From NCBI GenBank assembly GCA_029263455.1, contig JAJCXM010000008.1, positions 620,001-684,000 of the forward strand: 64,000 bases of DNA, in the 5' to 3' direction. How positions within the stretch are numbered: position 1 is the stretch's first letter; each line of letters opens with the position of its first letter. The translations under genes were made by a program, and so were the position numbers. This DNA comes from Holophagae bacterium (GTDB taxonomy: Bacteria > Acidobacteriota > Holophagae > Acanthopleuribacterales > Acanthopleuribacteraceae). Below are positions 1,494-38,109 of the stretch, piece by piece. The notes beneath the pieces were generated by a model. The model made no database searches. It was given only the letters and a program-made list of their open reading frames with translations, and had not been told where the DNA came from.

Positions 1494-1504
1494 CTTAGCA
1501 AGAC

Positions 1505-6099: not shown

Positions 6100-7983
6100 T
6101 CAATTTGAGTTAAGTTTTTTCTGGGGATTACTAAAGGCCAGGATCGTAGCCTGTGCACCTGAGTCATTCGAAGACTCGATTATCGTTTCGACGCAAATGC
6201 GATTGCGACCATTGTGTTTAGCCTGGTAAAGGCCCTTGTCGGCAAGGCGAATCAAGTCATAAGTAGAATGTCCTAACTGGGGGACAAAAGCGGCTACACC
6301 GACACTCACCGTCACTTTTCCAACTGGTGATTGGTAATGGGGCAACGCAAGGTTCTCGATCTCCTGGCGTATCCTTATGGCGATTTGACTAGCCCCGTCG
6401 ATATCGGTGTGGGGCAGTATGACCGCGAATTCCTCACCGCCGTAGCGGCTGACGAGATCGGCTGATCGTTTAGTAACTGCTTTTGCCGTCTGTGCAACGG
6501 TCCGCAAGCACTGGTCACCCTCTAAGTGACCGTAATGGTCGTTGTACTGCTTAAAGTAGTCGATGTCGATCATGAGCAAGGCGAGCGATTGTGTTTGTCT
6601 TATGTGACGGTCTAGCTCCAGTTGCAGCGTTTGGTCAAAGGCTCGTCGATTGGCAAGTCCTGTTAAACCATCGACGCGTGATAGTTCTTCTAGCTTCGTG
6701 TATAGGCGTTTTGTTTCGGTAATGTCCAGGCTAAGTCCGATTAAGTGTCGGTTGCCGTTTTCTGCCTCAAACGAAGACGTGACCATCGATGCCCAGCGTT
6801 CCTGGCCATCTCGATGGCGGAAGCGATGTTCGATTTTGAAGGCAATGCCTGAACACATCTTTTTGATCACGTCACCTGTTATTTTCCGGTCTTCCTCAAA
6901 GGTAATTGCCCTGATGACATCGTTGGGTTTTTCTAGCCATTTCTCGGGGGTGTGGCCCGTCAGTTGCAAGATAGCGTTATTAATGTAAAGAATTTTCTGC
7001 TCGTTGACGTCGAAAAGCCAAAAAGCTTCTTTCAGGTTCTCCGCCAGCGAACGGAATCGCCTCTCGTTGGCTTTGAGTTGACGCACTGCCTTCTCTCGTT
7101 CTGAACGGTTGACGTAGATGCCTTGTAGGACGGTTGCTCCATCGGCTTGACGAACTAAATGTGCCGCCCCTTCGACATATACTATTTCACCGGACTTGGT
7201 GACGAATTCACTTTGAAGCTGAGGAACCTGTTCTCCCGATGTAACCGCCCGAATCACCAGATGGTGCTTTTTGCGCATCTCCTTAGAGATAATATCGTTA
7301 ACGGTCAGACCGCCAATTTCGTCGCGTGAATATCCTAAGGTTTGTAACCAATAGGCGTTAACAAACAAGAAGCGACCGTCGCTATCCACATGATGAATAA
7401 AACATTGAGCTAGCTCTAAAAAAGCGCGCGAGTTTATGTCGTTTGTCTTCAGCTCAATTCGGTTTAATAGGGCCTGACGCAGATGATTAAGGTTTACGGA
7501 AAACAGAACCGCCCCACCCACTAGTGTAGGAACGAACGAGGGTTCCAAGAACGGATTGATGTTTAGTGACAATAAAGAAGCTGCCCATAGCGCGGCCGTA
7601 GCCAGAAAGTTGATGACGTAGTGAATATGGCTCATGGTCAAAAACGAGACAATGATGTGCATCGCGATGTAAATCTGTGCAATAGCTAGCTCGTGAGTCA
7701 CATCGATTAGTGTCCATATCTTGATCAAGAAAGTGAGGTAGATAGCCACGCCCCAGTGATGACTTTGGTGGCTTGGAATCCGCTTAGTCTTGATTAGATA
7801 AGCCACGCTATATGCCATCAATAGCAAGACTATATTGCCTGCATGCGCCGCCATAGATCGGTGCAGTAGGATGTCCCGAATGACGAAAACAGGTACTGCC
7901 ATCATCATGGAGATGGCGAGATACCTTAAGACCGTTAGATAACTGCTATCTAGCTTCGATCGAAGTTGCGTTTCCTTGTTCAT
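6100..7983 (-). CDS. Membrane diguanylate cyclase with two PAS domains
   Basis: Synthesises cyclic di-GMP. The N-terminal ~180 residues form several hydrophobic helices (membrane sensor), followed by PAS 1 (about 188-300), PAS 2 (about 308-430, then a PAC-type segment) and a GGDEF domain from about 438. The active-site motif is GGEEF at 515-519, and the inhibitory-site RxxD (RSAD, 506-509) sits exactly five residues before it, so product inhibition is expected. ATG at 7983 has AGAGGAG upstream. The gene follows the NtrC-type regulator on the same strand after 156 bases. That gap holds an inverted repeat and an imperfect sigma-54 promoter, suggesting separate, activator-dependent transcription. 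Confidence 0.92.
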   Translation of the reverse strand: MNKETQLRSKLDSSYLTVLRYLAISMMMAVPVFVIRDILLHRSMAAHAGNIVLLLMAYSVAYLIKTKRIPSHQSHHWGVAIYLTFLIKIWTLIDVTHELAIAQIYIAMHIIVSFLTMSHIHYVINFLATAALWAASLLSLNINPFLEPSFVPTLVGGAVLFSVNLNHLRQALLNRIELKTNDINSRAFLELAQCFIHHVDSDGRFLFVNAYWLQTLGYSRDEIGGLTVNDIISKEMRKKHHLVIRAVTSGEQVPQLQSEFVTKSGEIVYVEGAAHLVRQADGATVLQGIYVNRSEREKAVRQLKANERRFRSLAENLKEAFWLFDVNEQKILYINNAILQLTGHTPEKWLEKPNDVIRAITFEEDRKITGDVIKKMCSGIAFKIEHRFRHRDGQERWASMVTSSFEAENGNRHLIGLSLDITETKRLYTKLEELSRVDGLTGLANRRAFDQTLQLELDRHIRQTQSLALLMIDIDYFKQYNDHYGHLEGDQCLRTVAQTAKAVTKRSADLVSRYGGEEFAVILPHTDIDGASQIAIRIRQEIENLALPHYQSPVGKVTVSVGVAAFVPQLGHSTYDLIRLADKGLYQAKHNGRNRICVETIIESSNDSGAQATILAFSNPQKKLNSN

Positions 7984-8139: not shown

Positions 8140-9474
8140 TTACTCGTCTTCACGTTTAAGCGCATAGGTGAGTTGTGCTCGAGTTAATCCCAACAGCTTG
8201 GCCGCTTTTGTTTGATTACCTGCTGTACGTCTCAGGGCTTCTTCCACCATTCTTTGCTTCGTGCTTTCAATGTTCAAATCGGAAAAATTTGATGGTTGCG
8301 TTACGGGAGCCAACCAACGATCTAATTCGTTCTTGTCGATGAAGTCACTTTGGTTGAAGATGAGACAGCGCTCGATCACATTGCTCAATTCGCGCAGATT
8401 ACCAGGCCAGGGATATTCCTTTAACCGGGCGACAGCGGAGTCGCGAAATGTGATTACTTTGCGATTGAGTTTGTGGGCGATTCGAGCAGCAAACATATCA
8501 GCCAGAACAGGGATATCCTCTGTTCGTTCCCGTAGATTTGGCAATTTAAATTGCACGACATTTAGACGGTAAAAGAGGTCGGATCTAAATGTTTTCTCCT
8601 GGACCATCGTTTCAAGATCACGATTGGTTGCGGCGACAAATCGAACATTGACTTCGATTTCCTTCATGCCGCCGACGCGCCTAAACCGAGACGTATCCAA
8701 AAGGCCCAGCAATTTTGCTTGAGTCGACTGGCTCATGTCCCCGATTTCATCAAGAAACAATGTGCCTCCGTGCGCGACTTCGGCCAAGCCAACCTTGGTC
8801 GCTCGAGCGTCGGTGAAAGCGCCTTTCTCATGACCAAATAGTTCACTCTCCAAAAGTTCGGCCGATAACGTGGTGCAAGTAACGTGAATGAAAGGGCTGG
8901 CCCGTCTTTGACTATTATAGTGAATAAGCTCAGCCAAGAAGCTTTTACCCACGCCACTTTCTCCGGTAATCAACAAAGTGTTTGATTCCGTGGCCGAGTA
9001 TGTCTTGGCCAGCTCGAATACATCTTCCATGGCTTTGGACTTAAATCGGACTTGATCGAAACTATAGAAGCTGTCTCGTTTCTGGTGGACCTGCTTGAGT
9101 TCGTTTTCCACTTCCTGGAGTCGTAGCGCGATTTCAACTTTCAAGCGCATGACGTTGGGCTGAAAGGGTTTTTCAAGAAAATCGATAGCCCCCAACTGCA
9201 TCGCTTTCACGCCTAAATCCGTTGATCCATATCCGGTAACAAACATGAACACAGGTAGTTGGTCCGGAGGGAGAGACTGAATAAGCTCTATCCCATTGCC
9301 ATCGCCGAGCTGGTAGTCAAGGATCATTAAGGACCATTTTTGTTGTGCCAGGGCGATGCGAGCTTCTTTGATTGACATGACATGATGAAAATTAACGCCT
9401 AGTTGCATTACGATCTGGCGCATCATCAAGCCAATGTTACGGTCGTCATCCACCAATAATATAGTTTTTGTCAT
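8140..9474 (-). CDS. NtrC-family sigma-54-dependent response regulator
   Basis: Activates sigma-54 RNA polymerase. The 444 residues have the classical order: receiver domain with phospho-acceptor Asp53 and Lys102, AAA+ domain with Walker A GESGVGKS (171-178), the sigma-54-contacting loop GAFTDA (218-223, a common variant of GAFTGA), Walker B LFLDEIGD (239-246), and a C-terminal Fis-type helix-turn-helix (GNQTKAAKLLGLTRAQL). No histidine kinase gene is adjacent, so it is an orphan. It stands between a diguanylate cyclase downstream and a divergent operon headed by a near-perfect sigma-54 promoter, the obvious candidate target. ATG at 9474 has only a weak ribosome site. Confidence 0.95.
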   Translation of the reverse strand: MTKTILLVDDDRNIGLMMRQIVMQLGVNFHHVMSIKEARIALAQQKWSLMILDYQLGDGNGIELIQSLPPDQLPVFMFVTGYGSTDLGVKAMQLGAIDFLEKPFQPNVMRLKVEIALRLQEVENELKQVHQKRDSFYSFDQVRFKSKAMEDVFELAKTYSATESNTLLITGESGVGKSFLAELIHYNSQRRASPFIHVTCTTLSAELLESELFGHEKGAFTDARATKVGLAEVAHGGTLFLDEIGDMSQSTQAKLLGLLDTSRFRRVGGMKEIEVNVRFVAATNRDLETMVQEKTFRSDLFYRLNVVQFKLPNLRERTEDIPVLADMFAARIAHKLNRKVITFRDSAVARLKEYPWPGNLRELSNVIERCLIFNQSDFIDKNELDRWLAPVTQPSNFSDLNIESTKQRMVEEALRRTAGNQTKAAKLLGLTRAQLTYALKREDE

Positions 9475-9535: not shown

Positions 9536-9670
9536 CAAAGAAGTGTATCGGCAAATATTCTCAATTTCATGAACATCGCCGGTGTTTATTTTTCTGCAGT
9601 CGTTGTCGAATATCCTTCAATATTTTTCAACATGTAAACATAAGTAACATTGAATCAAGTAGATACGTGT

Positions 9671-9686
9671 TGGCACGGCACGTGCA
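9671..9686 (+). promoter_or_regulatory. Sigma-54 promoter, near-perfect
   Basis: TGGCACG-GCAC-GTGCA differs from the TGGCACG-N4-TTGCA consensus at one base and has exactly 10 bases between the -24 GG and the -12 GC. Transcription is predicted to start near 9697, 32 bases before the ATG at 9729. Confidence 0.85.
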
Positions 9687-9728
9687 AAATAGAGGCCTGT
9701 TGAGAGTATGGTTTGGAGGATCGACCCC

Positions 9729-10718
9729 ATGATTGAATTAAGCCTGAAACAAGAAAACAAACAACCGATGCTGGGAAATTGCGTGCCAGTGGATCTTTCG
9801 TTAACAGACGGAAGCACCCAGTGTGTTGGCCTGATAGGCTTTTCACCGCGCGATACGGAAATCACATTTGTGGATCCCACTAAAGAAGGCTATTCCTTGC
9901 AACGAATATCTTGCCGCAAGGTGTCGTATTTGGCTTTTGGCCACAAAAAAAATGACTTACCCATAATACTTGAAGAAAAGAGCATGGTTCCCCACCAAGT
10001 GAACTGTTCTAATAATCGTCATTTTTCGGTGCTCATTCGCCCCGATAACCTAGTCGCCAACCAAGGGTTTTTTGGCTACAGTCAAAGTGAAAACGATGAG
10101 AATGCCTACATATTCTTTTACCCATGGGGTGTCGAAAAGGTCACACAACTTGCGGAACTTCTGGTCACTGAAACCGTCAACGCAAAACAGGAACAAATGA
10201 GTCATGTTTGGTCGGAAGACGGTGCCTGGGATTTTCTGGCCTGGGATCAACCAGAGAGACTGGGAGAACGAGGTCGAATTCGGTGGAGCAATATCAAGAT
10301 TCCAGCTGTGGCCATGCTCTTACAACGTGAACTCAATGGCAAACGCGCTGTTGACAGGAGTGATGTAGACACCCATCAACATGTGAGCCTAATGATGATG
10401 TTTAACGCGATCATTGATGCTATTCATGCGCTTGGAGAAGTGGAATTTCAGATTGATCCTATCCAAGGTGATCGTGACTGTTGGATCCGGTTCATGTCCG
10501 AAGGCCAGTCCGTTTGGTCGTTTCCGTTAAGAGTAGAAGTTCGTCGCGAATTGGTAGGCATGCTGCGTGTCCTATCTTGCCTTGGAAGTGCCACCGAAGA
10601 AATTCAGGAAAGCGAACTTCGCTGGCGTGCCAATGATGAAGATGTTCAGGTGCACATTTCCTTAATCCCACAAGGCTTGTCGGAGTCACTTAGACTCACA
10701 CTGCAAGCGAACGATTGA
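9729..10718 (+). CDS. Uncharacterised protein with PilB/GspE N2-like domain, no ATPase core
   Basis: No named function. The 329-residue cytosolic protein has two small beta-rich stretches (about 10-75 and 85-145) of a pattern seen in short Sm-like/DUF domains. A C-terminal region (about 178-326) is collinear with the product of 22140-22721: RIRW...IP...LLQRE...DVDT..HVSLM, then EFQID, RFMSEG, WSFP, MLRVLSCLG and an ISLIPQG strand. The order resembles the N2 (PAS-like) domain of type IV pilus/type II secretion ATPases (DIHIEP, LRYRIDG, RLKVMAGLD, RVSTLPT), but no Walker box follows. The start was chosen at 9729 because GGAGGA lies 8 bases upstream; an in-frame ATG at 9708 lacks one. First gene of a sigma-54-type operon with the EAL protein, 14 bases downstream. 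Confidence 0.8.
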   Translation: MIELSLKQENKQPMLGNCVPVDLSLTDGSTQCVGLIGFSPRDTEITFVDPTKEGYSLQRISCRKVSYLAFGHKKNDLPIILEEKSMVPHQVNCSNNRHFSVLIRPDNLVANQGFFGYSQSENDENAYIFFYPWGVEKVTQLAELLVTETVNAKQEQMSHVWSEDGAWDFLAWDQPERLGERGRIRWSNIKIPAVAMLLQRELNGKRAVDRSDVDTHQHVSLMMMFNAIIDAIHALGEVEFQIDPIQGDRDCWIRFMSEGQSVWSFPLRVEVRRELVGMLRVLSCLGSATEEIQESELRWRANDEDVQVHISLIPQGLSESLRLTLQAND

Positions 10719-10732
10719 AAATGGAGAATATG

Positions 10733-12859
10733 ATGAATAATTCAAAATTTTATGCAGTCGACAGCGAACGAGGTTTGCATTCTGTCGCTATCATGATCGC
10801 TGAAAACTCCCAATCGTTTCAAAGCATCTGTGAGGCACTTGATGAAATGAATGTTTCCTGCGTGTTTTGTTCGCCAGTCGAGTTAAAGGCACTTGTCACA
10901 GCCCACGATCCCATTTTGGTACTTGTCGATCACGAGGTCATTGATGGTGACGGCATTGACTTTTGTAGTGAGTTACGAAACTCGTTGTTAGATATGCAGG
11001 TTCCTTTGGTTTATCTAACCAATAACGAAGACCCTTCTGAAATGGTCAGAGCCTTTGAAGCCGGCGTCTCAAATATATTTGTAAACAGTCGATGTAGTGA
11101 ACTCATTGATTATTTGCGACAAATATTAGAGTCGCCAAACGTGCCTTTGGCGGAGTCTGTTTGGGACCGAGGCAATATCCTGATGGTTGAAGATGAAGAT
11201 TTTGTGGCAGACGCACTCAAGATCGCTCTGATTCAACAAGGGCATGAAGTGAATCGGCTGGCAGACGGAAGTCGTATGCTGTCTGAAGTGGATCGCCTGC
11301 AACCTGACATCCTGCTCTTGGATCTTAATCTTCCTGGACGAAGTGGCTTTGAGTTGATTGCCGAACTGAAAAGTTCTCGACGCCATCGCCATATTCCGAT
11401 CATCGTTACATCGGGGCAAACAGATCGAGACTGTGTGCTGAAGGCGCTTCGTTTAGGGGCAGAAGATTATGTCCGTAAGCCTTTTGACATGGCAGAATTG
11501 TCGGCCCGAATTCGCAACTTAGTGCGAATCAAGTCGATGCATGATTTGATGAAACGTTCACGTATCTTTTGGCACGATCACGATGAACTAACAGGTCTTG
11601 TGAACAAGTCTGCAATGGCATCACAGATCAGACAACGTCTGGTAGCTGGCCAAAGTCTTGCCCTCTTGATTGTCGATATTGATGACTTCCATCGCATCGA
11701 TCACGGCATCGGCGATAAAGCTGGTGAAGTGGCACTGATTCGAGTCGCCGACTGTCTTAACAAAACCCTGCCCATGGCCTCAATCATCGCGCGTATTGAA
11801 GGCGCCAAATTTGCCGTGGTTATGAAAACGACATCACGAGGTCGCGTCGAACTTGCTGCCGACTTAATTGCAAAATCGCTAGCTCGACCTCTGTACCTGG
11901 GTGGGCAAGAGGTTTACCTACGTGCAAGCATCGGCGTATGCATGGCACCAAGCCAGGCGACCTCTTTTTCAGGCGCCTTTCGCTGCGCCTCGCTGGCAGT
12001 ACAAGAAGCTGCGATAAGTGGTGGTCGAGCATGTTTCTTCGACAACGCCATGGATGAAAACCGTAGGATCGAAATGACCCTAGAAAAAGATATCCTTCAC
12101 GCCATCGAACGTAACGAGATGCGTGTCGTTTTTCAGCCTAAAGTGGATCTGGAATCCCAAATGATAACCGGTGCCGAAGCTTTGTTGCGCTGGCAACATC
12201 CCAAATATGGCTGGATATCGCCTCTGAAAATGATTCCCATAGCTGAGCGTAACCTGGCCATTATCCCCATTGGTAAGTGGGTTGTAAGACAGGCATGTAA
12301 GTTCTGGTTGGCTTGTGATGCCATCGGCCGAGCAGACATGACAGTCGCAATCAATCTATCTGCAAAACAGTTTCGAGATCGTAACTTGGTCAACGACATT
12401 ATGGCTATTTTACGTCAAGAAGATGTGCCCACATCGGCAATAGAATTAGAAATAACCGAGAGCTGTTCGATGGAAAACGTTGACGCCACTCAAAAGACAT
12501 TAACCGAACTCAAACAGCTTGGCTTTCGACTTGCCGTCGATGATTTTGGAACGGGCTATTCATCGCTCTCCTACCTGACAAGATTCCCTATTGACACGCT
12601 TAAGATTGATCGTTCGTTTGTCATGAACGTTCCTTGCGATACAGCCGCGTCAGCTGTGGCAGCGGGTATCGTATCTTTGGCAAAATCACTAAGTTTGACG
12701 TGTGTCGCAGAAGGTGTCGAAACCGAGCAGCAACTAGAGTTTCTGCGCAGTCTCGGCTGTACCACGGGACAAGGCTATCTGTTCAGCAAACCTTTGGAAA
12801 TGGCCCAAGTCTTGGAAAAATTAAGAAAGGATGTGTCATACCAAAGAATGTCCGCCTGA
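10733..12859 (+). CDS. Double-receiver, degenerate GGDEF, EAL c-di-GMP phosphodiesterase
   Basis: Predicted to hydrolyse cyclic di-GMP to pGpG. Domain order in 708 residues: a receiver-like domain with Asp66 but no acidic pair or conserved lysine; a complete receiver (Asp197, KPF motif); a GGDEF domain whose active site is EGAKF (356-360), so cyclase activity is lost; and an EAL domain with all expected catalytic elements: EALLRW (Glu482), NLSAKQ, EITES, DDFGTGYSS, LKIDRSF, AEGVET and GQGYLFSKP. The ATG at 10733 was chosen because GGAG lies 6 bases upstream; TTG and ATG codons at 10715-10730 are also in frame. Second gene of the sigma-54-type operon, closed by the terminator at 12886-12917. 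Confidence 0.94.
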   Translation: MNNSKFYAVDSERGLHSVAIMIAENSQSFQSICEALDEMNVSCVFCSPVELKALVTAHDPILVLVDHEVIDGDGIDFCSELRNSLLDMQVPLVYLTNNEDPSEMVRAFEAGVSNIFVNSRCSELIDYLRQILESPNVPLAESVWDRGNILMVEDEDFVADALKIALIQQGHEVNRLADGSRMLSEVDRLQPDILLLDLNLPGRSGFELIAELKSSRRHRHIPIIVTSGQTDRDCVLKALRLGAEDYVRKPFDMAELSARIRNLVRIKSMHDLMKRSRIFWHDHDELTGLVNKSAMASQIRQRLVAGQSLALLIVDIDDFHRIDHGIGDKAGEVALIRVADCLNKTLPMASIIARIEGAKFAVVMKTTSRGRVELAADLIAKSLARPLYLGGQEVYLRASIGVCMAPSQATSFSGAFRCASLAVQEAAISGGRACFFDNAMDENRRIEMTLEKDILHAIERNEMRVVFQPKVDLESQMITGAEALLRWQHPKYGWISPLKMIPIAERNLAIIPIGKWVVRQACKFWLACDAIGRADMTVAINLSAKQFRDRNLVNDIMAILRQEDVPTSAIELEITESCSMENVDATQKTLTELKQLGFRLAVDDFGTGYSSLSYLTRFPIDTLKIDRSFVMNVPCDTAASAVAAGIVSLAKSLSLTCVAEGVETEQQLEFLRSLGCTTGQGYLFSKPLEMAQVLEKLRKDVSYQRMSA

Positions 12860-14595: not shown

Positions 14596-14762
14596 ATGTA
14601 CGTGGCTTCGGCCTCGAATTGACGCAAGATAACGAATGTTAGGCTGGTGTCCGCCGCGTAATACGTGATTAACAACCGGCCGCAATCCGTAACATAACCC
14701 CTTTTCAATGCCAAGTGGCATCTCCAATTTTGTCAAATTGGCACCAAGGACTGGATAAGATT

Positions 14763-16742
14763 ATGAATGACGGCAAGGCGTCGCGGCCGTCCGAACCGAC
14801 ACCTGTGAGCCATTCGCATCTCGATGCGGAACGGAGTCACATTCGCTATTCTGTTTTCGATGAGCTCATTGAAGGCGTGCAAGTGATCGATTACGAATGG
14901 CGGTATCTGTACCTTAATCCGGCAGCCATAAAACATGGCAAACTAGACGCTGTTTCGTATAGCGGCCGAAAGATAAGTGATTTGTATCCCGGTATCTGTG
15001 ACACCGAAGTGTTTGATCATATGGCCACCTGCATGAAGGGTCGAAAACCTCACACGATGGTCAATCGATTTAGCTATCCAAATGGGGAGAATGCTTGGTT
15101 TGAACTGAGAATGAATCCAGTTCCTGATGGTATCTTGGTTTTCTCGGTAGACATTACCGCGCGTGTCGAGGCCATTGAACAGGCCCGCCAAGCTAAAGAG
15201 GATTTGGCCACGACCTTGGATTGCATGGTTGTCTCGGTCTTTAGTTGCGATATTAAAGGACACGTAACCAGAATAAATCCAGCTGCAGAATTACTGACCA
15301 ATCGGCCCAGTGATCAAGCCATTGGGATTCCCTTAAACAAACTTGTCCGTTTCATTGTCGGTGAGGATGAGGTCGTTGACCCTTTAGAACGAGTGTTAAG
15401 AAATGGCGGCCAGAAATGGATGGCCAGTCGTGCTGAGGTTGAAAACGCGGACGGGGTTTCATTGGCAGTCGCATGCAGCGCTGCTCCCATTCGTTACGCG
15501 GATAACAGCATCCGAGGCGTTGTTATTTCTGTTCGCGACATGAGCGAAGAACGCCGTTTGAGTGAATTGTTGAAGCAGGCTGATCGTTTGAGCTCAATCG
15601 GACGCCTTGCTGGCGGCGTCGCCCATGATTTCAATAATCTGTTGACCGTCATTCAGGGCTATAGCGAATTGTTACTGGCTAAAAAGCTCCCTGCCGAACA
15701 CGAAGAGTGTGTGGAACAAATTAATCAGGCTTCTATTCGGGCTAGCGCGTTGACACGCCAACTGCTTGCCTTTTCCAGAAAACAAGTACTATCGCCCAAG
15801 GTAGTTGACCTCAACTTGGTCGTTGAAAATTTCAGTAAACTTGTTCAACGTCTAATTGGTGAGGACATTCACTTCTCCACCAAACTCAAACCTGATCTTG
15901 GCACGGTGTGGTTTGACCCAAACCAACTAGAGCAAGTGATCATGAATTTGGTCGTAAATGCTCGCGACGCCATGCCGCAGGGCGGGCGTCTCACCATTGA
16001 AACCGCCAACGTCGAACTATCGTCTGAATATGCGGCCATGCATCCTGGCTCAATGACTGGACCACACGTGATGCTTGCGGTTACTGACACCGGCTGCGGC
16101 ATTTCACACGAAATTCAATCTCGTGTATTCGAACCCTTTTTTACAACTAAGATTGCAGGGTCTGGGACTGGACTCGGATTGGCCACAGTCTACGGCATTG
16201 TCAAACAAAGCGGTGGCAACATTTGGCTCTACAGTGAACCCAATAAAGGGACAACCATCAAGGTATACATCCCCTGGCACGAGCAGGATCAGCGACAAAT
16301 CTTGATCGAGGAACCCAAGCACGTTATCCCAGACAATGTTAACGCGACCATTTTGTTGGTCGAGGATGAAGAATCCGTACGTACGCTTGTGTCCCGGGTG
16401 TTGCGCTCTGCCGGATACCATGTCTTTGATTTTGACAATGCGGATGATGCAGTCAAACTATTTACCAACCACCATTCGCCTGTCCATATGCTATTGACTG
16501 ATGTGGTTCTTCCTTGTTCTAGCGGTCGTAGTTTGGCCGACCAACTAATCGCCTTAGATCCAGATCTTATGGTGGTGTTTATGTCAGGCTACACGGATGA
16601 CGCCATCGTCCGTCACGGCATCCTAGATGAGGGGACCCGATTTATTGAAAAACCCATTACGCCTCGTGCGTTGTTAGAGAAGATACGAGGTTTTTTGAAA
16701 CCTAAATCCAATGCTTCCAATTTAAGTATGGACATTCGTTGA
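14763..16742 (+). CDS. Hybrid histidine kinase, PAS-PAS-HisKA-HATPase-receiver
   Basis: Soluble sensor kinase; no transmembrane helix is visible. In 659 residues: PAS 1 (about 29-135), PAS 2 (about 146-265), an HisKA domain of the NtrB-like type with GGVAHDFNNLLT (His288), an HATPase_c domain with MNLVVNARDAMP and GTGLGLATVYGIV, and a C-terminal receiver with Asp580 (LLTDVVLP) and EKPITP. The start is uncertain: ATG at 14763 gives a normal N-terminus, while a GTG at 14715 is in frame and would add 16 residues; neither has a strong ribosome site. It is the first of three kinases in tandem. Its kinase and receiver halves closely resemble those of the 930-residue hybrid at 19326. Confidence 0.9.
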   Translation: MNDGKASRPSEPTPVSHSHLDAERSHIRYSVFDELIEGVQVIDYEWRYLYLNPAAIKHGKLDAVSYSGRKISDLYPGICDTEVFDHMATCMKGRKPHTMVNRFSYPNGENAWFELRMNPVPDGILVFSVDITARVEAIEQARQAKEDLATTLDCMVVSVFSCDIKGHVTRINPAAELLTNRPSDQAIGIPLNKLVRFIVGEDEVVDPLERVLRNGGQKWMASRAEVENADGVSLAVACSAAPIRYADNSIRGVVISVRDMSEERRLSELLKQADRLSSIGRLAGGVAHDFNNLLTVIQGYSELLLAKKLPAEHEECVEQINQASIRASALTRQLLAFSRKQVLSPKVVDLNLVVENFSKLVQRLIGEDIHFSTKLKPDLGTVWFDPNQLEQVIMNLVVNARDAMPQGGRLTIETANVELSSEYAAMHPGSMTGPHVMLAVTDTGCGISHEIQSRVFEPFFTTKIAGSGTGLGLATVYGIVKQSGGNIWLYSEPNKGTTIKVYIPWHEQDQRQILIEEPKHVIPDNVNATILLVEDEESVRTLVSRVLRSAGYHVFDFDNADDAVKLFTNHHSPVHMLLTDVVLPCSSGRSLADQLIALDPDLMVVFMSGYTDDAIVRHGILDEGTRFIEKPITPRALLEKIRGFLKPKSNASNLSMDIR

Positions 16743-16767
16743 CTCTTGGCGTCGATAAGCATAGATT
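16739..16767 (+). promoter_or_regulatory. Sigma-70-type promoter for the second kinase
   Basis: TTGACT (16739-16744), 17-base spacer, TAGATT (16762-16767). The -35 box overlaps the stop codon of the preceding kinase. Confidence 0.6.
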
Positions 16768-16876
16768 GAATAGTGTAAAAAATTGCAAAAAGCGGATGGT
16801 TGGATAACCGAAAAATAATATGTAACTGTAACAATCGTCGTTTTATGAAAAGTGGTTTGTATGCATCAGTCGAGCC

Positions 16877-18889
16877 ATGCTTAAGAGCACCATGATTTCA
16901 GATCGAGAGCTGCTTCACTACTCAGCTTTGGCCGAATATTCCGCGGACGCCATTGTTACGAAACAGCTGGACGGAACCATATTGAGTTGGAACGCAGGGG
17001 CCGTTTCTCTATATGGCTATGAAGCCAATGAAGCGATAGGCCAGAACATCGAGATCATTGTTCCCGACGACAGGCGTGACGAACTGGCCTGGATCGACCA
17101 AAACCTGGTTGAGAAAAAGATCGTCGACCAGCTGGAAACGGTTCGCTGTCGAAAAGATGGCAGCTTGGTCAACGTATCAATTTCGGCGGCCCCTGTTAAA
17201 GAAAGAGACGGTACCGTCATTGGTGCAAGCACCATAACCCGTAACATCACGAAACGGGTGCGCGAAGAACAGTACTTCAGGTTGGCATTTCGAGCGTCGC
17301 AAATCGCCATGTTCTTTGTCGACAAAGCGGGTCTGATTTGTTTAGCCAACCGACAAGCTGGTCTCTATTTTGGTCTTTCTGAAAGCGAAATGGTTGGCAA
17401 GAAAATAGAAGATTTTGTGCCGATTTCAATGCAAGATCGACATGCCACCATGCGTGAATCCTACATGCGTGACCCCACGGAACGGGTCATGGGCGCGGGA
17501 CGCGACTTGCAAGCTATTCGACATGACGGCCGGGCGTTTCCCGTTGAAATAGCGCTTTCCCATATTGAAACTGAGGAAGGGCTACGAGTCCTTGCTGCTG
17601 TCGTCGATATCACCAGACGTAAAAATGCCGAAGACGAGATTCGTCGCATTAATGCCACGCTGGAGCAACGCATTGTGAAGCGCACGGCGCTATTGGAGGA
17701 AAGTAACGCCAAACTCACAGATGAAATAACGAAACGTCGGCATTCGGAAGCCAAAGTGCGTGAGCTTGCAAACAAGGCGCACGCTCAAGCTATGATGCTG
17801 CACGCCGTTATTTCGGCCTCGCCAGACCCTATCTACCGTTTTTCCAGAGACATGAAGTACCTGTATGCCAGCCCGTCCGGATTGGAATTCATAGGCAAGA
17901 CATCCGAGGAAGTGATAGGCAAAACATGGCGAGAAGTCGGTCAGCCGGCTAGCATCATGCAGGCTTATGAGAAGAATGTGAAACGTGTGTTTGAGACCTC
18001 AATCCCCTGTTCACATACGACCGAATGGACCCTAGGTGGTCGGACGCAATATTTTGACTGTTACTTGAATCCCATCTTAGATCGGGATGGCGTGGAATCC
18101 GTTGTATGCACAACAAGAAACGTCACGGAACGTGTCGCCAAAGAGAGGGTCATTATTGACTTGAATCGAGAGCTGGCTCGCCAGGCGGCAGCTTTGAGCA
18201 ATACCAATGCTGAGCTTGAAACCTTTGCTTACTCGGTATCGCACGATTTGCGCGCCCCTCTTCGGTATATCGATGGTTATGTGGGCATGCTGATCGAAGA
18301 TGCCTCTGATCGGCTAACAACTGAAGATCGGCGCCAACTTGACGTGGTTTCACAATCGGCTCGAGAAATGAGTGAATTGATCAATGATTTATTGGCCTTT
18401 TCAAAAATTGGTCGCGACGAATTGGCAATGGCGGAAGTGGATATGAATCGTCTCGTTTGTGAAGCCCGTAACTTATTGCGTGGATTCACAAAGGGCTGCG
18501 GTATCAAATGGAAGATATCCTCGCTACCGTGCGCGTTCGGCGACGAAAGCATGCTGCGCCTAGTGTGGCAAAACCTAATTGAAAATGCCACTAAATACAC
18601 GAAGAACAAGAAGGAGCCGGTAATTGAGATTAGTGGTTGGTCAACTGACGTCGAGACAATTTATCGCATTCGCGATAACGGCATAGGATTTGACAACGCC
18701 TTTTCGAAAAAGATGTTTGGCGTGTTCGAACGCTTGCATACGAAGAAGGAATTCAAAGGAACGGGTATCGGTTTAAGTAATGTCGACCGTATCGTGCAGC
18801 GTCATCGAGGCAAGATAGTAGCTGATGGCAGATTAGGCAAATACGCCGAATTCACCTTCCATATCCCACAAAAGGAAATGGACCCATGA
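16877..18889 (+). CDS. Multi-PAS sensor histidine kinase, phytochrome-like kinase core
   Basis: The 670-residue cytosolic kinase has three PAS domains (about 13-130, 135-255 and 310-430), with a charged coiled coil (about 255-305) between the second and third. An HisKA domain of the SVSHDLRAPLRYIDGY type (His456) and an HATPase_c domain (NLIENATKYT, RDNGIGF, GTGIGLSNV) follow. This core is typical of kinases paired with small Rcp1/CheY-like receivers. The next gene is exactly such a receiver and overlaps its stop by 4 bases (ATGA). The signal is unknown; the PAS domains show no obvious heme or flavin signature that I can identify. Confidence 0.93.
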   Translation: MLKSTMISDRELLHYSALAEYSADAIVTKQLDGTILSWNAGAVSLYGYEANEAIGQNIEIIVPDDRRDELAWIDQNLVEKKIVDQLETVRCRKDGSLVNVSISAAPVKERDGTVIGASTITRNITKRVREEQYFRLAFRASQIAMFFVDKAGLICLANRQAGLYFGLSESEMVGKKIEDFVPISMQDRHATMRESYMRDPTERVMGAGRDLQAIRHDGRAFPVEIALSHIETEEGLRVLAAVVDITRRKNAEDEIRRINATLEQRIVKRTALLEESNAKLTDEITKRRHSEAKVRELANKAHAQAMMLHAVISASPDPIYRFSRDMKYLYASPSGLEFIGKTSEEVIGKTWREVGQPASIMQAYEKNVKRVFETSIPCSHTTEWTLGGRTQYFDCYLNPILDRDGVESVVCTTRNVTERVAKERVIIDLNRELARQAAALSNTNAELETFAYSVSHDLRAPLRYIDGYVGMLIEDASDRLTTEDRRQLDVVSQSAREMSELINDLLAFSKIGRDELAMAEVDMNRLVCEARNLLRGFTKGCGIKWKISSLPCAFGDESMLRLVWQNLIENATKYTKNKKEPVIEISGWSTDVETIYRIRDNGIGFDNAFSKKMFGVFERLHTKKEFKGTGIGLSNVDRIVQRHRGKIVADGRLGKYAEFTFHIPQKEMDP

Positions 18890-19326
18890 CTCAACTCCTT
18901 AATATCTTTCTTGTCGAAGATGACGATCGTGACATTGAGTTGATTACTCGAGCGCTTAAGAAAACGGATCTCGTTACCCATATCGATTCAGCCAGGGATG
19001 GGCAAGAGGCTCTGGACTATGTGCACTGTGAAGGTCGCTTTCGGGACCGTCACCCAAGCAATCCGGCATTGATCATCCTCGATATCAAAATGCCAAAAGT
19101 AGATGGACTGCAGGTATTGGGTGAAATCCGGCGTTCCGAAAAGATGAAGTACGTGCCGGTCGTTTTATTGACCTCTTCGAATCATCCATCGGACAAGAAG
19201 GTCGCCTATCAGAAGGGTGCCAACGCATTTGTGGTTAAGCCCTTTAACTACCAATCATTCGCAGAAGCCGCGAGGAGATTGGGCGAGTTTTGGCTGTTGG
19301 TCAATGAACAACCGGACGAGTTCTGA
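18886..19326 (+). CDS. Stand-alone CheY/Rcp1-like response regulator
   Basis: A single receiver domain of 146 residues: acidic pocket EDDD (11-14), phospho-acceptor Asp66 (ILDIKMPK), switch Thr/Ser (LLTSS) and lysine in VVKPFNY. The insertion around residues 50-60 (GRFRDRHPSNP) is typical of Rcp1-type regulators that accept phosphate from phytochrome-like kinases. No output domain. Translationally coupled to the kinase upstream (ATGA overlap) and to the hybrid kinase downstream (one-base overlap), so phosphate flow among the three is likely. Confidence 0.94.
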   Translation: MTQLLNIFLVEDDDRDIELITRALKKTDLVTHIDSARDGQEALDYVHCEGRFRDRHPSNPALIILDIKMPKVDGLQVLGEIRRSEKMKYVPVVLLTSSNHPSDKKVAYQKGANAFVVKPFNYQSFAEAARRLGEFWLLVNEQPDEF

Positions 19327-22118
19327 TGATCAATCCACTTCACATTCTTCTTGTAGAAGACGATCAACGTGATGTTGAGCTGCTCATTAGGCATTTGCGC
19401 CGAGAGGGCATTCAATTCGAATTTGTAAGCGTTGATTCGCCGGAGCGATTGCAGGAAGAACTCTTGGGCAATCGATTTGACCTGATTTTGTCTGACTACC
19501 ATTTACCTCTTTTTGGCCAATCATCGGTATTGAAATCGGTGTTAGCCATTACCCAGGATATACCGATCATTTTTGTTTCAGGAACCGTTGGCGAGGACCT
19601 CGCCGTAGAGCTGCTGCGCCAAGGAGCTACCGATTACATCCTCAAGAACAGGCTGGGGCGACTAAAACTAGCCATCGAACGCGCGTTTGCGGAAAGAGAA
19701 GAGCGGCAAAAAAGGCAATTGGCCGAACAGGCCCTGCATTTGAAATCGACCCGTCAGGCTGCCGCGGCAAACTTTGGGCTCAGGGCCATGGCTGCTGGCA
19801 ATATTGAAGCATTGTTGGCTGGCGCGGTCGACCTATGCAATCGGAATTTTGATGTGAAGTTCAGTCACGTGCTGCAATGGAACCGAGGAACCGAACAGTA
19901 TGAGTGCCCAAAGATGAATGATGGTGGTGCGATCGAATGGGTCACTAATCCATATGGAGTTTTTTGGCAACATGACGAATGGGTTTCTCGCACGATCACA
20001 TACTATGGCGTCTCGGACCGTCTTGGAGACATGCCTGCCGCAATCGTGGAGTTGGGTATTCAAAGCGCACTGGCTGCACGAATTCCTGGATCAGCGGATT
20101 CCTGCCTGCAATACGTCTTGTGCGTCTATGACACGGAGGTGCGGGAATTCACTGTAGATGACGTGCATTTCATTGAGATGATCGCTCATTTCTTGACAGG
20201 AGCACTGCTGCGTTTGCAGGCAAGTGATGCCCTAGCTAAGAGTGAATCTAAGTTCCGCACACTTACAGAGACGAGTCCAGCTGGCATATGGCAAATGAAT
20301 CATCTCGGTGACATAGAATACGCCAACCCTGCTATGTGCCGGCTATTGGAGATCGAAAAAGTTGATAGTAAGCTCCCTGTCAAACTATTTGACTTTGTGG
20401 ATCCCGCTGAACGTGAACGAGTCATAGGCCAGCTAAATGATTCGCTCAGAGGTGTCCAATGCGAATTTATGATGGTTCTTCAAGGCTCTCGATCTTCTCA
20501 ACATCCCGTGTGGGTTGCGCTTTCGAGCATTCAAGTTGAAACAGAGCATTCGATCACCATGGGTACTTGTGTTGACTTGACCTCGCAAAAACGGGTAGAA
20601 GCCGAATTGAAAATGGTTTTAGAACGCTACGATCGCGCGCTTCGCGGATCGATGGATGGCATTTGGGAATGGAACCTGCCTACGCATGAGTTCTATTTTT
20701 CGCCTGGCTTTTTTGACCTGCTGGGATATGGCGACCATGAAGACACGTCAAGATCTGACTGGCTTGTTGAACGCTTGCATCCTAGTGATGTTGATCGTGT
20801 CAATGCAGCCTTAAGACAACATTTCAGAGACAAACAACCATTCGATATCGAATACCGTTTGCAAAGCCAAGACGGTAGTTATCGTTGGTTTAGCTCGCGC
20901 GCTGATACGATGAAACGGGACGATAGAGGTCGATCCATTCTCATGTCTGGTTCCATTCGTGACGTCGATGAGCGAAAGCACCTTGAAGAACAGTTGATTC
21001 AGGCTCAAAAAATGGAAGCTGTTGGTCGCCTTTCTGGAGGGGTGGCCCACGATTTCAACAATCTTCTGACCGTTATTTCCGGGTACGCGAATCTAATTAA
21101 AGAAAAACAACCTGAAACGCCCATCGAACTTCAGGCCATTATTGATGCGGCCGACCGTGCATCGTCGTTGACGCGCCAACTCTTGGCCTTTTCACGTAAG
21201 CAAGTGATTGAACCACGTGTCATACATCTGAATGAGCTTTTGCGAAACTTGGAAAGTATGCTCAGACGTCTTATTGGTGAAGATATTCGATTGAAAGTGC
21301 GAGCTGCTCGTGGCCTGGGACCGATCCATGCAGATCCAGGTCAGATTGAACAAATCATCATGAACCTATCCGTCAATGCGCGAGATGCCATGCCGGACGG
21401 AGGTAGTCTTGAATTGGTTACCAGCATGGTGACCGTTGATGAGTCATTTGCAAAAAGCCACTTTGAAGTAAAGCCAGGTCAATACGTTTTACTAAGGGTG
21501 AGTGACAGCGGATCAGGTATGACTCAAGACACGATACAACGCGCATTTGAACCCTTTTTCACCACAAAACTGGATGGACGGGGCACAGGGCTAGGGCTTT
21601 CAACCGTTTATGGCATCGTCAAACAAAATGGAGGCATGGTTAGCATTTATTCAGAGGAAGGCCACGGATGCACATTTAAAGTCTATTTCCCTATGTTCGA
21701 GGGAGTGGACGTGAAAGTCCCCATCTTGCCAAAACGTCGTTTATCGGTCGGTTCCGAGTCCATATTGTTAGTGGAAGATGACGACTCTTTGCGGAAACTC
21801 ATCACTATAATGCTGGAAAAGATGGGCTACCAGGTGATTGCCGCCGCCAACGCAGACAGGGCTGAGGAGCTCGTGTCGAATTTAGACCGATCGATCGATT
21901 TGTTATTAACCGATGTGGTCATGCCTGGGCGCAACGGTCGTATTTTGGCCGAAATGTTAATAGCTCAACTTCCCCACTTAAGGGTGATATTTATGTCAGG
22001 ATACACGGCCGACGCCATGATCGACCGCGGTGTCCTTAACGACAAAGTTCATTTCATAGAAAAGCCATTTTCATCAGCGCAGTTAGCCCAGAGCATCCGT
22101 GACGCCTTAGACCGCTGA
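19326..22118 (+). CDS. Hybrid histidine kinase, receiver-GAF-like-PAS-PAS-kinase-receiver
   Basis: The 930-residue protein has an N-terminal receiver (Asp57, DLILSDYHLP; Lys in ILKNRL), a GAF-like region (about 140-295), PAS 1 (about 305-425), PAS 2 of the PAS_3 type (about 430-555, DGIWEWNLPTHEFYFSPG), HisKA with GGVAHDFNNLLT (His575), HATPase_c (GTGLGLSTVYGIV) and a C-terminal receiver (Asp863, LLTDVVMPG; EKPF). Having receivers at both ends suggests it takes phosphate from an upstream kinase, perhaps the one at 16877, and passes it on through its own kinase core. No DNA-binding output is encoded in the cluster. It converges with the gene at 22140-22721, with 21 bases between. Confidence 0.93.
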   Translation: MINPLHILLVEDDQRDVELLIRHLRREGIQFEFVSVDSPERLQEELLGNRFDLILSDYHLPLFGQSSVLKSVLAITQDIPIIFVSGTVGEDLAVELLRQGATDYILKNRLGRLKLAIERAFAEREERQKRQLAEQALHLKSTRQAAAANFGLRAMAAGNIEALLAGAVDLCNRNFDVKFSHVLQWNRGTEQYECPKMNDGGAIEWVTNPYGVFWQHDEWVSRTITYYGVSDRLGDMPAAIVELGIQSALAARIPGSADSCLQYVLCVYDTEVREFTVDDVHFIEMIAHFLTGALLRLQASDALAKSESKFRTLTETSPAGIWQMNHLGDIEYANPAMCRLLEIEKVDSKLPVKLFDFVDPAERERVIGQLNDSLRGVQCEFMMVLQGSRSSQHPVWVALSSIQVETEHSITMGTCVDLTSQKRVEAELKMVLERYDRALRGSMDGIWEWNLPTHEFYFSPGFFDLLGYGDHEDTSRSDWLVERLHPSDVDRVNAALRQHFRDKQPFDIEYRLQSQDGSYRWFSSRADTMKRDDRGRSILMSGSIRDVDERKHLEEQLIQAQKMEAVGRLSGGVAHDFNNLLTVISGYANLIKEKQPETPIELQAIIDAADRASSLTRQLLAFSRKQVIEPRVIHLNELLRNLESMLRRLIGEDIRLKVRAARGLGPIHADPGQIEQIIMNLSVNARDAMPDGGSLELVTSMVTVDESFAKSHFEVKPGQYVLLRVSDSGSGMTQDTIQRAFEPFFTTKLDGRGTGLGLSTVYGIVKQNGGMVSIYSEEGHGCTFKVYFPMFEGVDVKVPILPKRRLSVGSESILLVEDDDSLRKLITIMLEKMGYQVIAAANADRAEELVSNLDRSIDLLLTDVVMPGRNGRILAEMLIAQLPHLRVIFMSGYTADAMIDRGVLNDKVHFIEKPFSSAQLAQSIRDALDR

Positions 22119-22139: not shown

Positions 22140-22721
22140 TCAATCACGGATCGGTGATTCGATCCAAACGACCAGTCGCGCGTGTCCTTCATGCGTGGGT
22201 TTCGCCATAACTTTGATGTGGCTCTCGCGATTATTGACATTCCAACGAATGGAACGTTCGGTTTCGTCCATGAGAGAGTCCATATTGGACATCACTTTAA
22301 ACATAGAGATCATTTCGTTAGAGATCGCGTCAGGGACTGGTAACGACCAGAAGGTTCTACCTTCAACGACGTAACGTAGGCTGCCATAAGCACAACCCAT
22401 CGCGGAGTTGAGATGTAGTTCTGCATTTTGAATTTCGTGAAGTTCATTGACGATGGCTTTCACCATAGACATCAAGTTCACGCGGTGCATGGTGTCGACA
22501 CCGTCAGCGTGGCGCGTTGCCTTGGATTCGTATTCCCGTCTCATCATGCGCACAAGGCTAGGAATGTCACTCCCTTTCCAGGTGATCTTTGGCGAGGATT
22601 CGGAAGAGCCGATCACCGGAATCCGTGTCCCTTTGGCGGGGCGAACAACGGGCGCGCTTATTTTCAGGTTTGATTCCCTGAGTGCTATGTCAAGTCGTTC
22701 GGTTACTGATAAATGGCTCAT
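22140..22721 (-). CDS. Uncharacterised small protein, PilB/GspE N2-like domain, paralogue of the 9729-10718 product
   Basis: No named function. The 193-residue soluble protein has a ~65-residue linker-like N-terminus and then a domain (about 52-190) collinear with the C-terminus of the protein at 9729-10718: IP..VRMMRRE, DGVDTMHRVNLM, AELHLN, SLRYVVEG, WSLP, ISMFKVMSNMD, IKVMAKPT and ARLVVWI. These follow the order of the pilus/type II secretion ATPase N2 domain (DIHLEP, LRYRIDG, SRLKVMAGLD, RVSTLPT, GEKVVLR), but no nucleotide-binding core follows. The start was set at 22721 (AGGGAG 8 bases upstream). An earlier in-frame ATG at 22775 would precede the transcription start predicted from the sigma-54-like promoter at 22782-22797. 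Monocistronic. Confidence 0.8.
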   Translation of the reverse strand: MSHLSVTERLDIALRESNLKISAPVVRPAKGTRIPVIGSSESSPKITWKGSDIPSLVRMMRREYESKATRHADGVDTMHRVNLMSMVKAIVNELHEIQNAELHLNSAMGCAYGSLRYVVEGRTFWSLPVPDAISNEMISMFKVMSNMDSLMDETERSIRWNVNNRESHIKVMAKPTHEGHARLVVWIESPIRD

Positions 22722-22781: not shown

Positions 22782-22797
22782 AGCATAGCTTGTGCCA
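22782..22797 (-). promoter_or_regulatory. Sigma-54 promoter for the small PilB-N2-like gene
   Basis: On the minus strand: TGGCACA-AGCT-ATGCT, with exact GG-N10-GC spacing and TTGGCAC at -24. The start is predicted near 22771, about 50 bases before the chosen ATG. Confidence 0.65.
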
Positions 22798-22915
22798 ATA
22801 TGTAAGATGCTTGTTTTAAACGTTTTGATGAATTCGACCGACGGCAGTTGCAGAAAATCCTACAAGCGTTGTCGACTATTCAACAGGGCTGAGCAGAGCA
22901 AGTATGGATCGCCGA

Positions 22916-35905: not shown

Positions 35906-35964
35906 TCGATGGCTGGTAATAACACATTCGTGGCGAAGGATTCGTCGCCATAATCGCAAACCTT

Positions 35965-35980
35965 TGGTACATTAGTTGCG
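35965..35980 (+). promoter_or_regulatory. Possible sigma-54-like promoter before the tail-specific protease
   Basis: TGGTACA-TTAG-TTGCG has exact GG-N10-GC spacing and a perfect TTGC, but the -24 C is T. The predicted start near 35991 is 31 bases before the ATG. Tentative. Confidence 0.35.
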
Positions 35981-36021
35981 TACGATGGTTCCATTGAGTG
36001 TTCAATTCGTTGGGAGGTCAC

Positions 36022-38109
36022 ATGCGTTTTCGCACTGCCGCAATCTTATTGATAAGTACGGTTGGATGGGTCCATGCTGACTCCGGTCCGTTGTCGGCGG
36101 AAAGCTATCAGCCTGAGTTGGCCAAGTTGGTGTCCTCTTTTTTGACCTATTACCATTACTCGAAAGAAATGGTTGACGATAAGGTGGCTGAACGCGCATT
36201 TGACAATTACCTGGAATCGCTTGACTACAATCACATGTATCTGCTGGCGTCAGACGTTAAAGATTTCCAAACTTTTGTGCCATCCATGGACGATGATTTA
36301 CGTGGCAAGACGGTGAAAATCGATAAACCGTTCTTGATGTTTAACCGATTTCGAAACCGAGTATATGAACGGATACCTGCGATATTAGACATGATTGACA
36401 AAGGGTTTGATTTCACGCTTGACGAATATTTGACCATCGACCGCTCTAAGGAGCCTTGGGCTGACACCGTCGATGATCTAAACGAGAGATGGCGACTAGC
36501 TGTGAAGGAACAAAGTTTAAGGTTCCGTATGAATGGAAAGTCGGATGAGGATACACGTAAATTGATGAAAGTCCGTTATGAACGTCTACTTAAAGACTAT
36601 CAGGACTTCGATTCCGTTGACGTGCTAGAGCAGTATTTATCGGCAATTGCTCATGCTTTTGATCCCCATTCCACCTACCTTAAACCAGCTACCAAAGACA
36701 ATTTCGACATCGATATGGGACACTCCCTTGAAGGCATAGGTGCCACCTTACGCAGGGAAAACGAATACACGATCGTGGTCGATTTGATTCCCGGCGGCCC
36801 TGCCGCAATGAGTGGAGAAGTAAAACCAAACGACAAGATATTTGCCGTTGCACAAGGCGATGAGGAACCGGTTGATGTCGTTGACATGCGAATCGATAGA
36901 GTCGTCAAATATATTCGGGGTACAAAGGGCACGGAAGTCCGACTACACCTTATTCCGGCCGACGCCATGGGTGACGAGACCAAACTGGTTAGTTTGATTC
37001 GCGATAAGGTCATGATCACTGCCGAAGATGTTTCGAAGGAGATCCGGGAAGTAGAAGACAAAGACGGCAACAAACATCGCTATGGGGTCATTACTGTTCC
37101 TTCCTTCTATCTCGATTCGCAAGCCAAAATGAAAGAAGACCCCAACTATAAGAGCACCACGCGTGACGTACGTAAACTTATCAAAGAGCTGGAACAAGAA
37201 TCAGTCGATGGCCTTGTGATTGATCTGAGGAATAATGGCGGCGGCTCTTTGGATGAGGCGGTCGAATTGACAGGCCTCTTTATTAAAGATGGGCCGGTGG
37301 TTCAAGTGCGTGGTCGTAAAGGGCAATACCGTGTGCTAGATGACCCGGACCACGACATCGTCTACGAAGGGCCGTTGGTTGTTTTGACCAATGTGTTCAG
37401 TGCTTCGGCTTCTGAGATATTTGCTGGCGCTATTCAAGACTATGACCGTGGTTTGGTCGTCGGAGACTCTGCGACCCATGGCAAAGGAACGGTGCAAAAT
37501 GTCATTGGACTCGATTCTTCTTTGGAGCGTGTTCTAAACCGGCAGTTTGAAGATGGCGTCGCTGGCGCGCTTAAACTTACAACACACAAATTCTATCGTG
37601 TGTCAGGAAGTTCAACTCAATTAAAGGGTGTTGAGCCCGATCTGATCTTGCCTTCGCCTTCTGATGTGTACGAGCTTGGTGAGCAATATTTGGATAACGC
37701 GTTGGAGTGGGATGTCATTGATCGCGTGAACTATACGAACTACGGCTTAGCCAATTCGTTCGTCGAAGTCATTAAGGAAAACTCTAAAAAAAGGGTAGAT
37801 CAAAACCGTGAGTTTCAGTACCTCCGGGAGGACAACGAAGCTTGGCGAAAACGGAAACTTGAAAATCGCGTTAGCCTCAATGAAGCTGTACGTGCGAAAG
37901 AAAAGGCTGATCTAGAAAGCTTGGATAAGATCCGTAAACAGGCGCGTCTAGCAGCGATGTCAAAGACTCCACAAGACGTCGAAGGTGGACTTGATGAGGT
38001 CACCATCACGGACTTTGTTCTTGATGAGGCGGTTAATATTCTCTATGACTACGATCGTGCGACACGGGGTAAGTTTGTTGCCTCAAACAATCTGAAAAAG
38101 GCGGGTTAA
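36022..38109 (+). CDS. prc: Carboxy-terminal (tail-specific) processing protease
   Basis: Periplasmic serine protease of the S41 family, long Prc/Tsp type (695 residues). Signal peptide MRFRTAAILLISTVGWVHA, an N-terminal helical domain (to about 230), a PDZ domain (GIGATLRRENEYTIVVDLIPGGPAAMSG), then the protease domain with the Ser/Lys dyad in FSASASEIFAGA and HGKGTVQ. The C-terminal DUF3340-like helical domain is charged. Substrates in relatives are SsrA-like tails, lipoproteins and peptidoglycan hydrolases. ATG at 36022 was chosen for GGGAGG 4 bases upstream; a GTG eight codons earlier would disrupt the signal peptide. Confidence 0.94.
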   Translation: MRFRTAAILLISTVGWVHADSGPLSAESYQPELAKLVSSFLTYYHYSKEMVDDKVAERAFDNYLESLDYNHMYLLASDVKDFQTFVPSMDDDLRGKTVKIDKPFLMFNRFRNRVYERIPAILDMIDKGFDFTLDEYLTIDRSKEPWADTVDDLNERWRLAVKEQSLRFRMNGKSDEDTRKLMKVRYERLLKDYQDFDSVDVLEQYLSAIAHAFDPHSTYLKPATKDNFDIDMGHSLEGIGATLRRENEYTIVVDLIPGGPAAMSGEVKPNDKIFAVAQGDEEPVDVVDMRIDRVVKYIRGTKGTEVRLHLIPADAMGDETKLVSLIRDKVMITAEDVSKEIREVEDKDGNKHRYGVITVPSFYLDSQAKMKEDPNYKSTTRDVRKLIKELEQESVDGLVIDLRNNGGGSLDEAVELTGLFIKDGPVVQVRGRKGQYRVLDDPDHDIVYEGPLVVLTNVFSASASEIFAGAIQDYDRGLVVGDSATHGKGTVQNVIGLDSSLERVLNRQFEDGVAGALKLTTHKFYRVSGSSTQLKGVEPDLILPSPSDVYELGEQYLDNALEWDVIDRVNYTNYGLANSFVEVIKENSKKRVDQNREFQYLREDNEAWRKRKLENRVSLNEAVRAKEKADLESLDKIRKQARLAAMSKTPQDVEGGLDEVTITDFVLDEAVNILYDYDRATRGKFVASNNLKKAG

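Follow-up and report, generated by a model that had tools for sequence, protein, structure and literature searches.

Can the N2 domain of a GspE/PilB-type extension ATPase exist as a protein of its own, or is an ORF that encodes little else the remnant of a broken pilB? This question is raised by positions 22140–22721 of the window, as we call the whole 64-kb stretch of DNA analysed here, for which an earlier note had proposed a stand-alone N2-like domain of 193 residues. The ORF is real and is read from the minus strand (22721 to 22140), where its ATG at 22721 is preceded by GGGAG; the plus-strand reading of the same interval contains seven stops. All four peptides quoted as fitting the N2 pattern (AELHLN, SLRYVVEG, ISMFKVMSNMD, IKVMAKPT) are present in the translation. 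The N2 core occupies residues 76–193, with a helix in front (residues 53–69) and residues 1–47 modelled at low confidence.

Homology to the N2 domain of extension ATPases

Scanned as a single sequence, the protein had no match in Pfam and a weak one to the GspE NCBIfam (residues 75–180, E 0.062), while one family member from the sister genome HKST-UBA04 reached E 0.0011 for a GspE-type family and E 0.035 for PF00437, likewise in single-sequence scans. Two faint PHROGs hits (E 0.064 and 0.07) were to families without an assigned function. Aligned by hhalign, the N2 regions of the four family members described below matched those of 35 ATPases with a probability of 98.1% (E 8.6e-14), compared to at most 2.2% for 40 column-permuted controls and at most 2.7% once a reversed control was added. 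The ATPase reference comprises 35 loci selected from those fetched, all with a Walker A motif downstream of N2; repeat fetches (L035, L056, L059), PilT-type loci and the doubtful loci L036, L045–L047 and L055 were left out. A profile of the four members retrieved GspE from the PDB (E 9.6e-5). As the earlier note had asserted, the protein fits the N2 pattern better than its paralogue at 9729–10718, scoring 26.6 vs 21.7 bits against an HMM of the 35 ATPase domains.

Predicted structures agreed with the profiles. An AlphaFold2 model built from the four sequences had pLDDT block means of 79–90 over residues 51–190, except for 67 in the block 71–80, and the top 22 Foldseek rows for this model were all GspE, PilB or PilF. 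Superposition in VIA on the N2 domain of EpsE (1p9w) gave a Z of 12.9 over 119 residues at 2.8 Å, and the N2 model of the paralogue a Z of 14.9. A PAS domain was considered in place of N2 and rejected, PAS-like VIA rows having Z values of ~3 as opposed to 10.4–12.9 for the nine best GspE/PilB/PilF rows. The 22140–22721 protein is a true homologue of the N2 (ND2) domain of GspE/EpsE and PilB/PilF, which lies within PF00437 (T2SSE) and which the stand-alone family resembles in both fold and sequence profile.

A genus-restricted family that cannot be motors

The paralogue (9729–10718, plus strand) combines an N-terminal beta-rich domain (about residues 20–145) with a C-terminal N2 domain; its start is most likely the ATG at 9729, which has GGAGG in front, and the listed ORF begins at 9708. 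The paralogy that had been claimed for its C-terminus was borne out (27% identity over 132 residues, BLASTP E 2e-20), and in the genome, a 6.25 Mb Acidobacteriota MAG, this is the only other relative of the 22140–22721 protein (two matches in all at E ≤ 10). Two further members are encoded in HKST-UBA04, one at L061 7512–8474, which is 46% identical to the 22140–22721 protein, and one at L062 7377–8453, bringing the stand-alone family to four proteins in two genomes. On a tree these form one clade (support 100/98) containing the 22140–22721/L061 pair (99/91); the tree is unrooted with long branches, and the join of the family to the ATPases is uncertain. From this topology, the two paralogues therefore probably existed before the split of the two species, which belong to one Acidobacteriota genus.

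The beta-rich domain, which carries an FSP motif, occurs in three copies in the genus (window 9777–10157, L061 7596–7955 and L062 7425–7787). Since the other members have it in common, the 22140–22721 protein is probably a secondarily minimal copy. The domain had no clear relative elsewhere in 396 genomes of the phylum (best other match E 0.0075), and its model, of modest confidence, was most similar in VIA to RimP (Z 5.1).

The profile search across genome and phylum that the earlier note had called for thus yielded two further members, both in HKST-UBA04, but inspected homologues beyond the genus were all complete ATPases. In the 396 phylum genomes, 38 of 38 matches outside the genus sat in frames of 503–1065 aa, and five other genomes of the same taxonomic family contained no stand-alone member. 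Contigs scanned with the single protein gave no match to a wider family, those scanned with the family alignment only the two HKST-UBA04 loci, and the viral contigs searched held no member. Among 61 relatives searched there were 28 rows beyond the four members, most of which were inspected; L046, L047 and L055 (E 0.1–0.5) were left out. L036 was rejected as a member, being an ATPase interrupted by a gap in the assembly, as was L045, which looks like a chance match. Because the inspected remote homologues are all complete ATPases and the members fall into one genus-level lineage, the stand-alone family is a lineage-specific offshoot, confined to that lineage in everything searched, and not widespread. 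The "new regulatory family" of the earlier note thus stands as a family of four members in two genomes; it is genus-restricted, and a regulatory role is inferred from operon partners and promoter.

All four members terminate at the N2 boundary. The C-terminal RecA-like ATPase domain with its Walker A and B motifs is absent from each, and the next genes encode none. Conservation in 80% or more of the 35 ATPases defines 34 columns; seven of these are kept in at least three of the four members and ten are lost in all four, the latter including D101, R118, R140, E151, R153, R170 and R186. Residues D101, R140, Q156, D157 and the following G are present in 35/35 ATPases and mostly not retained in the stand-alone proteins, and the ExRxPQDG stretch has gone from all or most of them. 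Columns 170 and 186, arginine in every one of the 35 ATPases, are occupied by K/H and W/T, respectively. By an alignment offset of 100, they were equated with two arginines of Geobacter PilB, R271 and R286. From across the interface between packing units, these act on the glutamate of the ASP box and on the phosphates of the nucleotide (PMC5424180); the same paper speaks of two arginine fingers in PilB-type ATPases as completely conserved. With no ATPase domain and both arginine-finger columns lost, the predicted proteins cannot be motors.

They might instead act as dominant-negative decoys, a free N2 replacing that of a subunit in the PilB/GspE ring, where N2 and CTD form a packing unit, and stalling the ring under RpoN-inducing conditions for lack of arginine fingers. 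The loss of columns 170 and 186 in 4/4 members would suit such a role, the chains of PilB touch one another mainly through N2 and CTD (PMC5424180), and a natural PilB inhibitor, CpiA, is described in PMC11656802. However, the residues found in all 35 ATPases are mostly not kept, so that docking in the native way is not favoured; we consider a decoy unlikely.

Gains accompany these losses. Ten residues never vary within the family but do so in the ATPases (D76, T77, V81, L83, A89, W125, S126, P128, E136 and W160; four sequences only), W125-S126-x-P128 and W160 being gains of the stand-alone proteins. Between the 22140–22721 gene and its L061 orthologue, synonymous sites are saturated (pS 0.753 vs 0.766 for shuffled codons), and pN is about half of random (0.342 vs 0.734 for shuffled codons); neighbouring orthologue pairs had pN values of 0.430 and 0.456, and the second paralogue pair 0.485. 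By this measure, the pair is under purifying selection. A pilB fragment or pseudogene is rejected in view of the common N2-boundary ends, purifying selection and the family-invariant residues, in agreement with the earlier note, which had argued against a broken pilB. Decay of a former GspE-type gene into fragments retained by chance would be compatible with the completeness of the inspected remote homologues and with the missing N-terminal domain of the 22140–22721 protein, which its orthologue has. Yet such decay is highly improbable, given selection despite saturated synonymous sites, one domain boundary in four proteins, a conserved promoter-like site and operon, and invariant residues that the ATPases lack.

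A little-known lineage of Acidobacteria keeps the N2 domain of the motor that builds pili in the form of small, independent proteins, probably duplicated before the species split. N2 has so far been regarded as half of the unit by which extension ATPases bind nucleotides, and as inseparable from it, and among the MshEN and motor papers in the open-licence literature we found no description of a free N2 protein.

Sigma-54-type sites upstream of the N2 genes

Promoters recognised by sigma-54 follow a GG-N10-GC consensus in a TGGCAC/TGC context. The claim that both genes have promoters of this type proved stronger than originally put, as the only two perfect TGGCAC-N6-TGC matches of the window face the two N2 genes: TTGGCACAAGCTATGCT (22782–22798, minus strand) lies 61 bp, measured from its 3′ GC, from the ATG at 22721, and TTGGCACGGCACGTGCA (9670–9686, plus strand) 43 bp from the ATG at 9729. 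The L061 gene is preceded by a near-perfect orthologous site (L061 7446–7462), which has CATATTGGC..ATGCT in common with that of the 22140–22721 gene. Two perfect matches compare with 0.60 expected, and 13 of 100 shuffles of the window had at least two somewhere, so what matters is where the sites lie, not how many there are. When one mismatch is allowed, matches in the window are at chance level (19 vs 16.8 expected). Across the 6.25 Mb, TTGGCAC-N6-TGCW, a pattern written after both sites had been seen, occurred in five places as compared to six for a control pattern, i.e. without genome-wide enrichment; two of the five are the N2-gene sites. Of the other three (L081–L083), one lies within a clpA-like gene and two before unrelated genes. 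The L082 site (1501–1517, minus strand), for instance, is located ~86 bp before the gene for a 394-aa secreted-looking protein that adjoins a histidine kinase gene.

When the 120 bp before 46 window ORFs and five ORFs of the sister genome were ranked by a weighted motif score, the 22140–22721 and 9729–10718 genes came first and second, the HKST-UBA04 orthologue third and the HKST-UBA04 operon with the MshEN-like and N2 genes fifth. The site before this operon departs from TGGCAC at two positions and does not reach significance by itself. Fourth was TTGGTACATTAGTTGCG (window 35964–35980, plus strand), 34 bp before a 703-aa ORF (35998–38109). Each family member is preceded, directly or at the operon head, by a predicted GG-N10-GC element. 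The genome encodes rpoN (E 5.3e-68), and from the predicted sites we infer that RpoN may control the N2 genes. As a possible operator before the first site, the sequence offered short repeats only, among them an 8-nt inverted repeat (9503–9510/9557–9564).

Genomic context and possible function

Downstream of the long paralogue, and either overlapping it by 4 bp (TTG start) or abutting it (ATG 10721), lies the gene for a REC-REC-GGDEF-EAL protein (10715–12859, plus strand) with a degenerate GGDEF motif (EGAKF) and intact EAL catalytic motifs. Its HKST-UBA04 orthologue (L062 8476–10686) is 39.7% identical, the pairing with the N2 gene is operonic in both genomes, and the best match outside the genus has an E of 6.6e-92 vs 2.6e-146 in HKST-UBA04. 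Divergent from 9729, an NtrC-type REC-AAA(sigma-54 interaction)-Fis HTH regulator (8140–9474, minus strand; PF00158 E 3.3e-63) is, by position, the candidate activator of both sigma-54-type sites. The neighbourhood is conserved to include a PAS-GGDEF gene (6100–7983, minus strand), 34% identical to L062 13646–15484.

Directly upstream of the N2 gene in HKST-UBA04 are two genes (L062 6546–7380), the first for a lone REC and the second for a 103-aa MshEN-like protein; the second overlaps the N2 gene by 4 bp, and the REC-REC-GGDEF-EAL gene follows the N2 gene. The arrangement resembles a split N1–N2 with no ATPase. The 103-aa protein scored 21.0 bits (E 3.3e-4) against MshEN PF05157, for which the Pfam cut-off is 23.1; it had no match in NCBIfam, the PDB or the window's genome, and the 24-residue c-di-GMP motifs of MshEN were not seen in it by eye.

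The 22140–22721 gene, on the other hand, is solitary, with a convergent hybrid histidine kinase gene on one side and a same-strand BNR/sortilin-like gene upstream, and neither it nor its HKST-UBA04 orthologue is co-operonic with a c-di-GMP gene. Two-component genes surround it; on the plus strand, closely packed genes for PAS histidine kinases, REC proteins and hybrid kinases (window 14715–22118) extend to ~22 bp from the convergent N2 gene. The neighbours examined included no pilus or secretion gene.

Our tentative preference, held at slightly less than even odds, is that the N2 proteins are accessory, non-catalytic adaptors, switched by RpoN, that relay c-di-GMP and two-component control to a type IV pilus or type II secretion machine. 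RpoN and an NtrC-type activator, for which 8140–9474 is the best candidate, would turn on both N2 genes together, and their products would pass the signals on as non-catalytic subunits. The long version may act with its operon mate, a predicted c-di-GMP phosphodiesterase under receiver control, and in HKST-UBA04 also with the separate MshEN-like subunit and the lone REC. The minimal version, without the N-terminal beta domain, would presumably compete with or complement the long one. Against this model, most of the positions that ATPase N2 domains conserve have gone (7/34 kept in at least three members), which would weaken native-style docking on an ATPase ring. The 22140–22721 gene and its orthologue also lie outside c-di-GMP operons, pilus and secretion genes were absent from the neighbours examined, the MshEN match falls short of the Pfam cut-off, and the site before the HKST-UBA04 operon lacks significance by itself.

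Such adaptors would work like FimX-PilZ or PdeR control of PilB, with the adaptor domain taken from the motor itself. FimX-PilZ-PilB and PdeK-PdeR control type IV pili, as PMC8389850 and PMC11656802 describe, and the proposed likeness lies in a REC/GGDEF/EAL protein with degenerate GGDEF acting with a small adaptor. Unlike in FimX-PilZ, the adaptor here is N2-like and not PilZ, and whereas FimX (REC-PAS-GGDEF-EAL) is degenerate in both GGDEF and EAL, the 10715–12859 protein is so in GGDEF only. Recruitment of a motor N-terminal domain into signalling outside the motor has a parallel in ATPase-less MshEN proteins, the domain there being MshEN and not N2; MshEN may also be joined to a different domain, as in the response regulator Bd2402 (both from PMC5013675).

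A possible alternative, and nearly as good, is that the N2 fold has been taken over for signalling or dimerisation, in the manner of a PAS domain, and now controls only the REC-REC-GGDEF-EAL enzyme or nearby two-component kinases, with its link to pili or secretion lost. This would fit the operon with the predicted phosphodiesterase in both genomes, the loss of most ATPase-conserved N2 positions, the weak PAS rows in the VIA fold list (Z about 3) and the two-component genes around 22140–22721. It accounts less readily for that gene and its orthologue, neither of which shares an operon with a c-di-GMP gene, and for the MshEN-like N1 fragment beside an HKST-UBA04 N2 gene, which points to a motor-tied origin and perhaps function. 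A more elaborate and rather doubtful version of a motor link is a motor dismembered into a signalling complex: N1 (MshEN-like) and N2 of a GspE/PilB-type ATPase would persist as subunits of their own after loss of the ATPase, in an operon that is switched by RpoN and also encodes a c-di-GMP phosphodiesterase under receiver control. Through the docking geometry of the motor, c-di-GMP would then be linked to the activity of the pilus or of secretion.

A natural N2 that is free, kept by selection and served by its own sigma-54-type promoters would demonstrate an independent function for this domain, and would make a convenient soluble tool for testing its binding partners. It would also extend the short list of known regulators of pilus and type II secretion motors by a further kind of adaptor.

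As to origin, Acidobacteriota GspE/PilB-like ATPases of about 780–890 aa (L037, L039, L050, L064, L065, L067–L070) have the same two-residue-longer first hairpin as the stand-alone family and attach beside it on the unrooted tree; they are complete, unlike that family, which lacks the ATPase domain, the arginine columns and, in all or most members, ExRxPQDG. Each of the two genus genomes encodes four long N2-bearing ATPases, none of this type. Descent from them is suggestive only, because its support consists of the hairpin insert and a long-branch tree position, and the neighbourhoods differ. The 780–890-aa ATPases occur in other genera of the taxonomic family and across the phylum, possibly as c-di-GMP-controlled motors of an unknown system; by eye, L037, L039 and L050 combine GAF, MshEN, N2 and ATPase domains.
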